A DNA stretch of 35,726 nucleotides from Bacteroidales bacterium (lineage in GTDB: Bacteria; Bacteroidota; Bacteroidia; Bacteroidales; FEN-979). The notes under the pieces were generated by a model that ran no database searches, was not told the DNA's origin, and saw nothing but the letters and a program-made list of their open reading frames with translations. This document shows, piece by piece, positions 8,409 to 12,436 of this stretch. The stretch is taken from the NCBI GenBank assembly GCA_025355465.1, contig JANXZO010000038.1, positions 1 to 35,726 of the forward strand, in the 5' to 3' direction. Both the position numbers and the translations under genes were made by a program. Each line of letters opens with the position of its first letter. The first letter of the stretch is position 1.

Positions 8409-8951
8409 GTGAAAAAACTATCAATGAGTGACTTAAACCGGATAACACCGGAGGAATTCAAAGACTCTGAAAAGACCCCGATGGTGATCATCCTCGACAA
8501 CCTCCGTTCGCAGAATAACATTGGTTCGGTGTTTCGCACAGCGGATGCTTTCCGGCTGGCAGGCATTTACCTGTGTGGCATCACGGCAACACCGCCACAC
8601 CGCGAAATACATAAAACGGCACTCGGTGCCACGGAATCGGTCGACTGGAAATACTTCGAAACAACAGAGGAGGCAATCAGGCAGTTGCGCCATGATGGAT
8701 ACAGGCTCATCGCGGTTGAACAGGTGAATGGCGGGGTGCTGCTCCAGGATTTCAAACCGGCGCCTGATGAAAAGCTGGCGATCATTTTTGGAAATGAAGT
8801 GAACGGCATTCAGAATCAAGTGCTTTCCATGTGTGATCTGGCCATTGAAATACCGCAGTCAGGAACCAAGCATTCCCTCAACGTTTCCGTCGCTGTTGGG
8901 ATCGTGATATGGGACATTTTTCTGAAAATGAAAATAATGCCGCAGAAGTGA
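8409..8951 (+). CDS. TrmH/SpoU-family RNA 2'-O-methyltransferase
   Basis: SPOUT-class SAM-dependent methyltransferase of 180 residues that likely 2'-O-methylates a tRNA or rRNA ribose. All three SpoU motifs are visible: NNIGSVFRTADAF (residues 36-48), IIFGNEVNGI (near 126) and the knotted C-terminal motif IPQSGTKHSLNVSVAVGI, including the SAM-binding SLNVSVA. There is no N-terminal substrate-binding domain, as in the compact Bacteroidota members. I use GTG at 8409 because KKLSMSDLNRITPEEFK matches the family N-terminus; ATG at 8424 is the alternative. It has its own promoter. Which RNA position it modifies cannot be told from sequence. Confidence 0.9.
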   Translation: MKKLSMSDLNRITPEEFKDSEKTPMVIILDNLRSQNNIGSVFRTADAFRLAGIYLCGITATPPHREIHKTALGATESVDWKYFETTEEAIRQLRHDGYRLIAVEQVNGGVLLQDFKPAPDEKLAIIFGNEVNGIQNQVLSMCDLAIEIPQSGTKHSLNVSVAVGIVIWDIFLKMKIMPQK

Positions 8952-9122
8952 AACCCTTTTGAAGATTGGCCGTATAATTCAAAAAGTTGAAAAATATTTG
9001 TGTTTTTTCCGTCAAACTTTTTAATTTTACACGCTGAAACGAACGATTGCTAATTAAATAATTTAAAATCAATTAATTACTGTTATTCACCTGAAATTGT
9101 TCATTTTGTAACAAGGTCAATG

Positions 9123-9152
9123 TTGTAATCAAGGATTAATATATTATATTTG
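9123..9152 (+). promoter_or_regulatory. Promoter of the OmpA/TPR outer-membrane gene
   Basis: TTG at 9123-9125 and TATATTTG at 9145-9152 are separated by 19 bp, fitting the Bacteroidota consensus. The predicted start is near 9156, the first base of an 18-base sequence complementary to the gene's 3' UTR. The 245-base intergenic stretch before the gene is AT-rich and holds no other gene. Confidence 0.75.
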
Positions 9153-9155
9153 CTA

Positions 9156-9173
9156 AATCAGTAAACAAAACTA
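9156..9173 (+). repeat. 18-bp inverted repeat, left copy (5' leader)
   Basis: AATCAGTAAACAAAACTA is the exact reverse complement of 11747-11764, which starts at the stop codon of the same gene. The copy coincides with the predicted mRNA 5' end and leaves the start-codon region (9174-9199) unpaired. Confidence 0.9.
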
Positions 9174-9196
9174 AATAAACACAAAACTTCAGTGGT

Positions 9197-11749
9197 ATGA
9201 AAAAACTTCTAACAATCCTGTCTACACTGGTTATCTTGCTTTCTGTGATGACGCTGCCGATGGCTTCTGTAGCCCAGGCAACGAAAGAGACGCCCAAAGC
9301 AGAGACAACCAAGAAAAAGTGTGAGAAGGCACCCTCAAACAGCTATTGGTCGTTCACAGGGTACGCTTCAATGAACCAGTTCAACGGCGACCTCTCCACG
9401 AACATTGCCTTCAACGACAATTGGAAATTTGGTGCTGGTGGTATCTTTACCAAGCAATTTGGCCGTGTCATCGGCGCACGTTTCCGTGGTGGCTGGGCTC
9501 CCCTTGGATCGAGCATCAACAACAAGTATGTGGGTACAAGTTATCAAACCACAAGTTTCGAGGCATGGGTGATCGAAGCCAGTCTCGAAGGAACATTAAA
9601 CTGGGTAAACTGGATCATGGGTTCCAAACCTGAGCGTTTTTTCAGCTCCTATTTCATCGTTGGAATCGGCTTTGACCATACGCAGGGCGTTCGTTATGAT
9701 GCCAAAGGCAACATTGCCGGCTACCTGGGTTATCCGAGCCATCTCACGAAAGATGCCGGTTCACTGGGCGTTGGTAACAACAGCGGCCTCGGCAAATGGA
9801 ACATGGAGTTCACCGCAACCTATGGTATCGGCTTCGACTTCAACATCAGCAAACATTGGTCGATCAATCCGGAAGTCCTCCTCCGTTGGAGAGATGGCGA
9901 TGCGCTTGACATGGTAAAAGCAGGTAACAAATCCGTATATAACGACATGTTCAGCGGTGTAAACGTAGGAATTACCTACAAATTTGCCTATTCAGGCTGC
10001 AACATGAAAGAGATGCTGAAGAACTATGCGCTCGTTAAATATGAGACGACCCCTGCAGTTCTCAGCGAAAAGGGCGACTCTGTAGTATTTACCGTAAAAG
10101 GCACTGTTCCTCCCAAGTATTTCTGCCCCACCGCAGCCATGTATTTCCAGCCAGTTCTTACCTATGCCGGCGGTCAAACAGAGATGCCTTGCGCAACACA
10201 GCTGATCGGCGAAAAAGTTGTAGGCACCGGCACTATGATCAAGTACAAAGAAGGTGGTTCGTTTACCTACACTTGCGTGTTCCCATACAAACCTGAGATG
10301 AATACCTCAACGCTTTCTGTTGCTCCGATCGTTTACGAAGCAAAAGAGAAAATCCTGCTGAAAAAGGATGAGATCAAAGCCAAGGTGAAATTTGTTGAAA
10401 TGCCTTCACGCGACCTGGCTCCCGGTGTAATCTACACTGCCACCCGTGCCCAGATGGACCAGATTACCATTGTTGCTGATCATGGTTACCAGAAAGAGGT
10501 GATTGATTCAAAAACCGGTGTTATTTACTTCAAGAAGAATAAATATGATCTTGATCTGAAATTCGGTGAAAACAAGACCGACGGTGCCAAGAACAACCTC
10601 AACGAACTCAACACCTTCATCAAACAGGGTTGGAAAATTAAGGACATCACTATGAATGGCTGGGCATCCCCTGAAGGAGAAGAGACCCTCAATGCCAACC
10701 TTTCCGAAAACCGTTCGAAAACAGGCCAGGCCTGGATGACAGACCAGTTTAAAGGTTGGGTGAAAGATGCCAACAAAGATAACAAAGACAAAAAAGCTGC
10801 TAAGGCTGCGGTTGAAGCTGCCGGTAAAGATGTCAACATGGCACTTCAGCATCACGGACCGGATTGGAATGGATTCCTCAAAGCCGTTCAGGCTTCGAAC
10901 ATGAAGGACAAGGATAAAATCCTCAATGTTATCAACTCCAATAACGACCAGCTTAAGAAAGAGCAGGAGATCCGCAACATGATCCTGATCTATCCGGAAA
11001 TTGAAAAAGATCTCCTTCCCCCGTTACGTCGCAGCGAGATCACTGCCAACCTGTATGAGCCTCGCTTTACCGAAGCTGAACTCCTGCAGTTTGCCGTTTC
11101 GAGTCCTGAAAAGCTGAAAGTGGAAGAGATTCTTTATGCAGGAACCCTTACCAACGATGATGCTGCAAAACTGACCATCTATGAAAATGCAGCACGCCTC
11201 TTCCCCAACAACTGGAAGGCACACAACAATGCAGCTGTTTCTAACATTGCCAAGAACAATTTCTCCAAAGCAGCCGAACACCTTACAAAAGCTGCCCAGA
11301 TTGCCCCGAACAACGGCATCATCGAAAACAATATCGGTGTGGTTGCTTCAAAACAGGGTGATGTGAAGAAAGCTGAAGCTCAATTCAAAAAAGCTGCTCA
11401 GCTTGGCGAAAACACCAACTACAACCAGGGTACACTGCTTATCAAGAAGGGTGACTATGCAAAAGCCAACACGCTCCTCGGTAACGCAAAATGCACCTAT
11501 AACCTCGGCCTTGCCCAGATGCAATCCGGAAACAACAGTGCTGCAGAGACCACCCTCAAGTGTGCTCCCCAGACTCCGGAAACCTTCTACCTGCTCGCTA
11601 TCATTGGCGCTCGTACAAACAACACCAAGATGCTGTACGAATACCTCATGAAAGCCTGTCAGAAGGCAGACCTGAAAGCTCAGGCAAAAGGTGATCGCGA
11701 GTTTTATAACTACGAAAACACCCCTGATTTTAAGAATATCGTTAAATAG
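9197..11749 (+). CDS. Outer-membrane protein with beta-barrel, OmpA-like and TPR domains
   Basis: 850 residues. A signal peptide ends near SVAQA. A Lys-rich linker precedes a ~230-residue region of alternating aromatic strands (SYWSFTGYASMNQFNGDLS, GARFRGGWAPLG, GIGFDFNISKHWSINPE, GVNVGITYKF) that reads as an 8-stranded outer-membrane barrel. Beta domains follow (275-440). An OmpA-like peptidoglycan-binding segment around 450-540 contains NGWASPEGEE and LSENRS, interrupted by a Lys/Ala-rich insert. Several TPR-type repeats lie at ~660-830 (NNWKAHNNAAVSN, NNGIIENNIGVVASKQGD). It probably links the outer membrane to peptidoglycan and offers a periplasmic protein-binding platform. It is a single-gene unit with promoter and terminator, probably highly expressed. 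Similar proteins are common in Bacteroidota but have no agreed name. Confidence 0.85.
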   Translation: MKKLLTILSTLVILLSVMTLPMASVAQATKETPKAETTKKKCEKAPSNSYWSFTGYASMNQFNGDLSTNIAFNDNWKFGAGGIFTKQFGRVIGARFRGGWAPLGSSINNKYVGTSYQTTSFEAWVIEASLEGTLNWVNWIMGSKPERFFSSYFIVGIGFDHTQGVRYDAKGNIAGYLGYPSHLTKDAGSLGVGNNSGLGKWNMEFTATYGIGFDFNISKHWSINPEVLLRWRDGDALDMVKAGNKSVYNDMFSGVNVGITYKFAYSGCNMKEMLKNYALVKYETTPAVLSEKGDSVVFTVKGTVPPKYFCPTAAMYFQPVLTYAGGQTEMPCATQLIGEKVVGTGTMIKYKEGGSFTYTCVFPYKPEMNTSTLSVAPIVYEAKEKILLKKDEIKAKVKFVEMPSRDLAPGVIYTATRAQMDQITIVADHGYQKEVIDSKTGVIYFKKNKYDLDLKFGENKTDGAKNNLNELNTFIKQGWKIKDITMNGWASPEGEETLNANLSENRSKTGQAWMTDQFKGWVKDANKDNKDKKAAKAAVEAAGKDVNMALQHHGPDWNGFLKAVQASNMKDKDKILNVINSNNDQLKKEQEIRNMILIYPEIEKDLLPPLRRSEITANLYEPRFTEAELLQFAVSSPEKLKVEEILYAGTLTNDDAAKLTIYENAARLFPNNWKAHNNAAVSNIAKNNFSKAAEHLTKAAQIAPNNGIIENNIGVVASKQGDVKKAEAQFKKAAQLGENTNYNQGTLLIKKGDYAKANTLLGNAKCTYNLGLAQMQSGNNSAAETTLKCAPQTPETFYLLAIIGARTNNTKMLYEYLMKACQKADLKAQAKGDREFYNYENTPDFKNIVK

Positions 11750-11764
11750 TTTTGTTTACTGATT
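11747..11764 (+). repeat. 18-bp inverted repeat, right copy (stop codon and 3' UTR)
   Basis: TAGTTTTGTTTACTGATT begins with the TAG stop of the OmpA/TPR gene and is the exact reverse complement of 9156-9173 in the leader. It lies just before the terminator hairpin. Confidence 0.9.
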
Positions 11765-11769
11765 GTTGT

Positions 11770-11802
11770 AAAAGCCCGGCCGGAAGGTCGGGCTTTTTTT
11801 TT
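11770..11802 (+). terminator. Intrinsic terminator, OmpA/TPR gene (possibly bidirectional)
   Basis: AAAGCCCGGCC and GGTCGGGCTTT form an 11-bp stem (one G-T pair) around a GGAA tetraloop, followed by nine T. The A-run at the other side lets it work for the convergent kinase gene as well; its end touches that gene's stop codon. Confidence 0.92.
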
Positions 11803-12436
11803 ACCGTACAATCGTGTGCATCCCGATAGGGTACTCTTTCGAAAGGACTGACCTGATCCATGCATAGTCGTCCTCGTTGTTAACGAAATCAATACCGTTG
11901 GTATCGATCAGCAGAATGCGATGGTCGGGCTGCTGGCGTAAAAAATCAAGGTAGCCGGATTGGATTTTATCGAGGTATTCAAACTGAATATTCTGTTCAT
12001 AAACCCTCCCCCGTTTCTTTATGTTTTTCTTGAGATTTTCGGTTTCCAGGTAGAGGTAGACGATCAGGTCGGGCTTGGGAACCGCCGCCGATACAATATT
12101 AAATAGCTTTCCATAGAGCCCGAACTCCAGTGGCTCCAGGTTTTTGCTGGCAAAGATGAGGGATTTGAAAATAAAATAGTCGGCAATGGTGAGCGGCTGA
12201 AATAAATCGGAAACATTAAAATGGTTCTTTAACTGCTGGTACCGATCGGCCAGGAACGACAACTCCAGTGGAAAGGCATAGCGTGCAGGGTCTTCGTAAA
12301 ATTTTGGCAAAAATGAGTTCTCTTCGAACTGTTCAAGGATCAGTCGCGCACCCTGTTCTTTGGCCAAACGCGTGGCCAGCGAGGTTTTACCAGCCCCGAT
12401 GTTACCTTCTACGACGATGTAATTATAATGTTCCAG
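11801..12436 (-). CDS. Deoxynucleoside kinase, non-canonical start
   Basis: Member of the deoxyguanosine/deoxyadenosine kinase (dNK) family, phosphorylating salvage deoxynucleosides. The P-loop EGNIGAGKTS precedes LEQFEENSFLPKFYEDPARYAFPLE and the nucleoside-pocket DRY, and PDLIVYLYLE and the LID segment KRGRVYEQNI follow. No ATG, GTG or TTG lies between the in-frame folK stop (12494-12496) and the P-loop. The family N-terminus would begin at CTG 12434-12436 followed by EHYNYIVVEGNIGAGKT, giving 211 residues, a normal length. Starting at the ATG at 12367 would remove the P-loop and is rejected as the functional start. Either CTG initiation, readthrough from folK or a sequence error explains it. 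The stop overlaps the terminator at 11770-11802. Family is secure; the start is uncertain. Confidence 0.85.
   Translation of the reverse strand: MEHYNYIVVEGNIGAGKTSLATRLAKEQGARLILEQFEENSFLPKFYEDPARYAFPLELSFLADRYQQLKNHFNVSDLFQPLTIADYFIFKSLIFASKNLEPLEFGLYGKLFNIVSAAVPKPDLIVYLYLETENLKKNIKKRGRVYEQNIQFEYLDKIQSGYLDFLRQQPDHRILLIDTNGIDFVNNEDDYAWIRSVLSKEYPIGMHTIVR

Follow-up and report, generated by a model that had tools for sequence, protein, structure and literature searches.

What is the role of an 18-base sequence at the start of a predicted mRNA whose exact reverse complement begins at the stop codon of the same gene? The question is raised by contig JANXZO010000038.1 of the Bacteroidales bacterium assembly GCA_025355465.1 (FEN-979; genome label G000), which was analysed over its full 35,726 nucleotides (the window), and in which a gene for an 850-amino-acid protein carries AATCAGTAAACAAAACTA at 9156-9173 (+) and the exact reverse complement at 11747-11764. 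The match is unique in the genome, recurs in relatives, is replaced by other complementary sequences in other families of the order, and is specific to the long form of the gene. We assign a probability of about 0.5 to the reading in which the 3' untranslated region (UTR) is a built-in antisense element directed at the 5' region of the same gene, is under selection for RNA base pairing and shields the leader. The parts of the locus are as follows.

9145 to 9152, + strand: predicted -7 promoter box TATATTTG (from the sequence and the known consensus)
9156 to 9173, + strand: 5' arm AATCAGTAAACAAAACTA, the predicted first 18 bases of the mRNA (exact match)
9174 to 9196, + strand: part of the leader left unpaired before the start codon (ribosome landing region), outside the duplex
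9197 to 11749, + strand: coding sequence, 850 amino acids, with a signal-peptide-like start, a weakly barrel-like N-terminal part and TPR repeats
11747 to 11764, + strand: 3' arm TAGTTTTGTTTACTGATT, beginning at the stop codon, complement of the 5' arm, in the same place in orthologs
11770 to 11802, + strand: intrinsic terminator hairpin and T run (stem 11770-11797)

The 5' copy begins 3 bases past TATATTTG, presumably a -7 box of the Bacteroidota type, and for this reason is expected to open the transcript, at a start site that is itself a prediction. The TAG stop codon (11747-11749) supplies the first bases of the 3' copy, which ends 5 bases ahead of the terminator. The original prediction held that a perfect 18-base match confined to the two ends of one transcript was improbable by chance. 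With up to 3 mismatches allowed, the two arms are the sole matches in the window (chance mean 0.01), and the 3.54 Mb genome contains no exact copies of the 18-mer beyond them. When the predicted 2646-base mRNA was folded, the minimum-energy structure contained all 18 pairs, each with a probability between 0.87 and 1.0. A start-site motif common to many promoters was rejected as the source of the 5' arm, as TTTG-N1-9-TCAGTAAAC occurs at only 3 places in the genome, this gene included. Rfam yielded no matches at gathering score in 8900-12000. As a separate observation, the G000 genome contains 71 occurrences of ATCAGTAAACAAAA when up to 2 mismatches are allowed, versus 30 of the backwards-read pattern, a difference that composition could explain.

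RNAduplex was used to test pairing between the 5' region and the 3' UTR, each 3' UTR being compared with 300 dinucleotide-shuffled versions of itself. The z score of this gene, -6.5, is the extreme among the 98 G000 genes with a terminator (next, -3.5; in a repeat run on G000 genes, the strongest of the other 97 reached -3.2), and trimming the 5' region to the end of the -7 box left it at -5.1. The arms are thus complementary beyond chance, as in icaR and hbs, where the 3' UTR pairs with the 5' UTR of its own mRNA. Positions -23 to -1 lie outside the duplex in this gene, so that its ribosome-binding site is not covered in the manner of icaR.

All 43 genomes of the same family match the protein at E <= 0.001, and 39 contain a clear ortholog; G004, G017 and G039 have weak or partial matches only, and G036 has a weak match and a 21-residue piece at a contig edge. 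The family set consists of 34 orthologs with both ends, because five of the 39 miss one end on their contigs (L027, L044, L049, L050 and L051/L052); L053 (the 3' end of the G005 gene again) and L054 (G036) were also left out. Both arms are recognisable in 21 of these 34 (1/1 in genus g1, 6/6 in g2, 12/16 in g3 and 2/2 in g7), in the form of a leader beginning approximately with AATCAGTAAACA after the -7 box and of approximately TGTTTACTGAT or TGTTTGCTGAT between the stop codon and the terminator, a stretch of 20-30 nucleotides in the family. Complementarity of the 5' and 3' regions reaches p < 0.05 in 21 of the 34 and p < 0.01 in 16. In addition, CTGAT recurs ahead of the terminator in ortholog 3' UTRs (for example L041, L090, L082 and L032) even where the 5' partner is different or absent, and is possibly the oldest part of the element. 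One ortholog, L024 (G014:C116:3661-6216, a draft genome), contains a single in-frame TGA.

The first test window began 85 bases upstream, reached slightly beyond the ATG and gave 21/33 at p < 0.05 and 15/33 at p < 0.01 in the gene's own family, and 8/40 and 6/40, respectively, in other families. It was later extended to +33, after complements of the start codon had been spotted by eye, and the first tally with this wide window, which includes promoter bases that stay untranscribed, was 21/34 and 16/34 in the own family and 19/40 and 13/40 in the others. With the 5' region restricted to what follows the -7 box, p < 0.01 was retained by 29 of the 30 significant genes that have such a box; no box was found in 3 of 33. 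Controls, to which the wide window and the same method were applied, comprised 203 genes from G000 and five genomes of other families, of which 5 reached p < 0.01 and 18 reached p < 0.05 (more than 1 in 20). One of them (L192:2914-3996 (-), genome G175) shows strong 5'/3' complementarity with a z of -4.43, and may be either a second case or an intergenic repeat.

Beyond the family, 97 of 393 genomes of the order match at 1e-100, and 80 regions of other families were selected by hand from the matches of the order rather than taken in full. Both ends were available for 79 of these (L163 was left out with one end missing), 44 with the long architecture and 35 encoding shorter paralogs of approximately 600 amino acids. 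The long orthologs of other families are 34-44% identical, and their arm sequences are unrelated to those of the window; nevertheless, complementarity between the 3' UTR and the 5' region of the same gene reaches p < 0.01 in 14 of the 44 and p < 0.05 in 21. Examples are TTCAGAAATTA/TAATTTCTGAA in family f21, TAATTTCAATTG/TAATTGAAATTA in f117 (18 pairs across 19 columns, with one mismatch) and, in f102, AAGAATTATG/CATAATTCTT and a duplex over the start codon in which AGAATTATGA and AGAATTACC, with three bulged bases between them, face GGTAATTCTTCATAATTCT. Compared with the controls by Fisher's test, the excess has a probability of 1e-11 in the own family and 3e-8 in the others. The shorter paralogs resemble the controls (1/35 at p < 0.01, 6/35 at p < 0.05); end pairing is specific to the long form of the gene. 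Long and short forms occur as tandem neighbours on the same strand at G140:C187 30600-35969 (L063/L140), G092:C171 1194-6775 (L074/L149), G171:C142 14300-19500 (L177/L168) and G055:C88 52-5300 (L178/L165); L177 and L178 are long orthologs without pairing.

In a swap test, the 5' region of each ortholog was set against the 3' UTRs of other families, and vice versa. The gene's own pair was best both ways in 9 of the 44 other-family orthologs, from 7 families (f21, f41, f84, f102, f103, f110 and f117), and in 12 of the 34 own-family orthologs; both ranks were below 0.05 in 14/44 and 17/34, respectively. The true 5' region outperformed its backwards-read version in 30/44 other-family and 27/34 own-family orthologs. 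Chance complementarity of AT-rich ends, for which the AT-richness of leaders and 3' UTRs and the 18 of 203 controls at p < 0.05 could be cited, is scarcely credible when own pairs are favoured over swapped partners and p < 0.01 is reached by 30 of all 78 long orthologs versus 5 of the 203 controls. At least one member at p < 0.01 is found in 10 of 20 families, and in 8 of 20 when one gene is taken per family; from these proportions and the 30 of 78, the pairing appears to have been kept by selection in relatives. What selection keeps is probably the complementarity and not the sequence, a claim based mainly on the swap test and on the excess over control genes. The suggestion that the mRNA closes into a panhandle gains from all three lines of evidence: the arms recur at the ends of orthologs, other families are complementary with other letters, and the fold of the mRNA predicts the pairing.

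A perfect inverted repeat that bounds a transcription unit could also be a feature of the DNA: it might flank a mobile or invertible unit as its terminal inverted repeats, or provide a pair of binding sites for a protein. The surroundings of the gene make this highly improbable. The upstream neighbour, which we take to be an RNA-methyltransferase-like gene, occupies an unchanged position and orientation in 23 of 25 loci from metagenome-assembled genomes of relatives, and the records of the other two end at the gene; the downstream neighbour, presumably a nucleoside-kinase-like gene, is present in 17 of 25 loci and lies on the opposite strand in 2 of the 17 (L128 and L131). The earlier suggestion that the arms mark the ends of a once-mobile unit is rejected because every one of the 23 loci long enough to include the upstream neighbour has it, in unchanged orientation, and the genome contains no further exact copies of the arms. 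No inverted or empty locus was seen in close relatives. A DNA-level role also fits poorly with unrelated yet complementary sequences in other families, some of them over the start codon, and with the change shared by genus g3 in the 3' arm, which is compatible with G-U pairing.

The bases paired on the 5' side in the 33 orthologs with p < 0.0135 form two peaks, at -45 to -22 and at about -6 to +24, and each of positions -21 to -7 is paired in just 1-3 of the 33 genes. Twenty duplexes, including that of the window gene, are of the leader type, 12 are of the start type (pairing within -3 to +5) and one lies in the early coding region; 10 of the 33 pair the A of the start codon, and 15 pair a base of the stop codon on the 3' side. 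In 18 of the 20 leader-type duplexes, pairing starts no more than 4 bases ahead of the end of the -7 box and no more than 6 bases past it; one starts 11 bases ahead of it, and one belongs to a gene in which no box was found; some predicted leader duplexes reach 4 to 11 bases into the untranscribed promoter. All 20 stop at -22 or further upstream and leave -21 to -1 free, which confirms for the whole type the expectation that the leader near the ATG stays accessible in the paired form. In the gene's own family, G035 (genus g6) pairs over the start codon instead.

The landing site can switch inside a single family. The gene is present in 6 of 9 genomes of f102, and 5 of the 6 pair at p < 0.02 (G143, G388 and G326 are also part of the other-family count): four duplexes lie over the start codon, G434 pairs 15 leader bases instead, and G433 has no such pairing. 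An exchange of A-U versus G-C pairs distinguishes AGAATTATG/CATAATTCT in G143 from AGGATTATG/CATAATCCT in G326. The start region in this family (L200-L202) contains two copies of AGAATTA around the start codon; the 3' UTR of G143 pairs with both.

The genome encodes RNase Y and RNase III. No match to RNase J was found above the family cut-off (there are three weak matches) and none to Hfq, and with the genome 98.8% complete both are likely to be truly absent. The original proposal that pairing protects the mRNA ends from exonucleases is therefore weakened as regards a 5' exonuclease, whereas protection from endonucleolytic cleavage by RNase Y is compatible with the gene content. We propose that, once transcription has reached the terminator, the 18-base tail segment would pair with the 18 bases at the head of its own mRNA, closing the molecule, and that a ribosome terminating at the stop codon would cover the tail segment and open it. 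Because the tail segment begins at the stop codon, we infer that the closed form would be dominant only on poorly translated mRNA. In the window gene, a duplex at the very start of the transcript with a free start codon would most likely shield the 5' leader from cleavage of the RNase Y type, as in hbs; in other families, a duplex over the start codon would most likely block initiation, as in icaR. The ends of the transcript, the action in cis, the gating by ribosomes and the direction of the effect are all predicted parts of this scheme. Its extension to the whole order, as a self-antisense 3' UTR that persists in one gene family, is put forward tentatively, at somewhat short of even odds; in this view the match of the tail, in many cases from the stop codon onward, to its own 5' end or start codon would have been rebuilt repeatedly with new letters and would serve as a translation-gated closed-loop switch held open by terminating ribosomes.

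The same pairing in cis might instead be repressive in the window gene, the closed start denying 30S and S1 an unstructured landing site and creating a substrate for RNase III, with an icaR-like limit on output per mRNA. Such a role would suit the 12 ortholog duplexes on the start-codon region (one of them, that of G035, in the same family), the presence of RNase III together with an 18-bp duplex, and the proposal that initiation in Bacteroidota is S1-based and uses unstructured leaders (PMC3155529). It is rendered rather unlikely by the free -21 to -1 region of every leader-type duplex and by a strong hairpin (-9 kcal/mol) at -21 in Prevotella bryantii that, according to the same study, did not lower expression (PMC3155529).

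Action in trans would be expected if the 3' end were cut off as a small RNA, consisting of a seed and a terminator, that acts on its own mRNA in the manner of OppZ and CarZ. A short seed with an intrinsic terminator immediately behind it has the appropriate form, and a precedent is described in PMC7398697; we consider this unlikely all the same, as the genome has no Hfq match and few leader starts that look alike (3, including this gene). Transcription of such an RNA from a separate promoter in the 3' arm was rejected, since the promoter-like string there, TAGTTTTG, is not kept in the g2 orthologs. A lock released by 3' trimming, such that the full-length mRNA is inert and the shortened mRNA active, shares with hok and AapA the anatomy of long-distance pairing between 5' and 3' ends (PMC6733600), but is very unlikely here: translation during transcription of the 2.55 kb coding region would precede formation of the lock, the start codon is free in this gene, and the product is an 850-amino-acid TPR protein and not a small toxin.

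Several results weigh against the reading of the 3' UTR as a leader-shielding antisense element. Since the orthologs share ancestry, the tests do not count as fully independent. The original prediction had proposed to look for compensatory changes between the two arms, and these are found mainly between families; within the family the core of the arms is mostly invariant and covariation is accordingly weak. Over 14 columns in 21 genomes, 17 changed cells keep the pair (4 by two-sided changes) and 30 break it, most of the breaking cells lying towards the ends of the duplex; for columns 2-11 the numbers are 11 keeping and 8 breaking, but 8 of the 11 represent one shared U-G change. Pairing is not significant in genera g4, g5 and g8 of the family or in G012, G025, G009 and G015, the 5' arm of G020 is damaged, and no member of f14, f47, f49, f59, f76, f99 or f114 reaches p < 0.05. 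The two binding modes have opposite expected effects, and either one function or two must be assumed to account for them. Finally, pairing in cis and pairing in trans would leave the same trace in sequence, as would a stabilising and a repressing effect.

The product of the gene is suggested to be an outer-membrane-type protein of Bacteroidales: its N-terminal region matches the PorG and OMP_b-brl models below their cut-offs, an OmpA domain appears in ortholog L058 only and below cut-off, and solved structures match the C-terminal TPR part alone. A single gene family that shows the pairing in 10 of the 20 families sampled from an order, and combines sequence turnover with two landing places and switching between them, offers natural compensatory evidence and ready pairs of arms for asking whether closure of an mRNA stabilises or silences it. 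The setting is a phylum reported to be without a functional Shine-Dalgarno interaction (PMC3155529), and a genome with no match to Hfq and only partial ones to RNase J.

Pairing between the 5' and 3' UTRs of bacterial mRNAs is known from a few single cases, namely RNAIII and icaR of Staphylococcus aureus and hbs of Bacillus subtilis, and a 2021 review states that applicability to other genes needs further work (PMC7821165). No published work on such pairing in Bacteroidota was found, judged by titles and the beginnings of abstracts, with subscription papers mostly uncovered. In hbs, 14 nucleotides of 5'-3' UTR pairing keep RNase Y from cutting the mRNA within its 5' UTR (PMC7821165, PMC8406224); the present gene resembles it in pairing the two UTRs of one mRNA and in belonging to a genome with RNase Y, and differs in phylum, in the gene concerned and in having an 18-bp perfect duplex that includes the predicted first bases and begins at the stop codon. 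In icaR, an anti-Shine-Dalgarno UCCCC motif lies in a 391-nucleotide 3' UTR, for which S. epidermidis is described as having no equivalent (PMC3868564). The 3' UTR of icaR likewise pairs with the 5' UTR of its own mRNA, and the start-type orthologs similarly cover the initiation region (PMC3868564, PMC7821165), whereas here the distance from stop codon to terminator is 20-30 nucleotides in the family and the complementarity recurs across families with changing sequence. The hok and AapA mRNAs also have both transcript ends paired together, but encode toxins, with an antisense RNA as antitoxin and activation by 3' trimming (PMC6733600), unlike this gene, which encodes no small toxin. OppZ and CarZ of Vibrio cholerae share base pairing of a 3' end sequence with its own transcript, but are small RNAs processed by RNase E (PMC7398697), and the present genome has no Hfq match. 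The kind of pairing is thus known, and what is new is its recurrence in one long mRNA family across an order, with turnover of the sequence and two landing sites.

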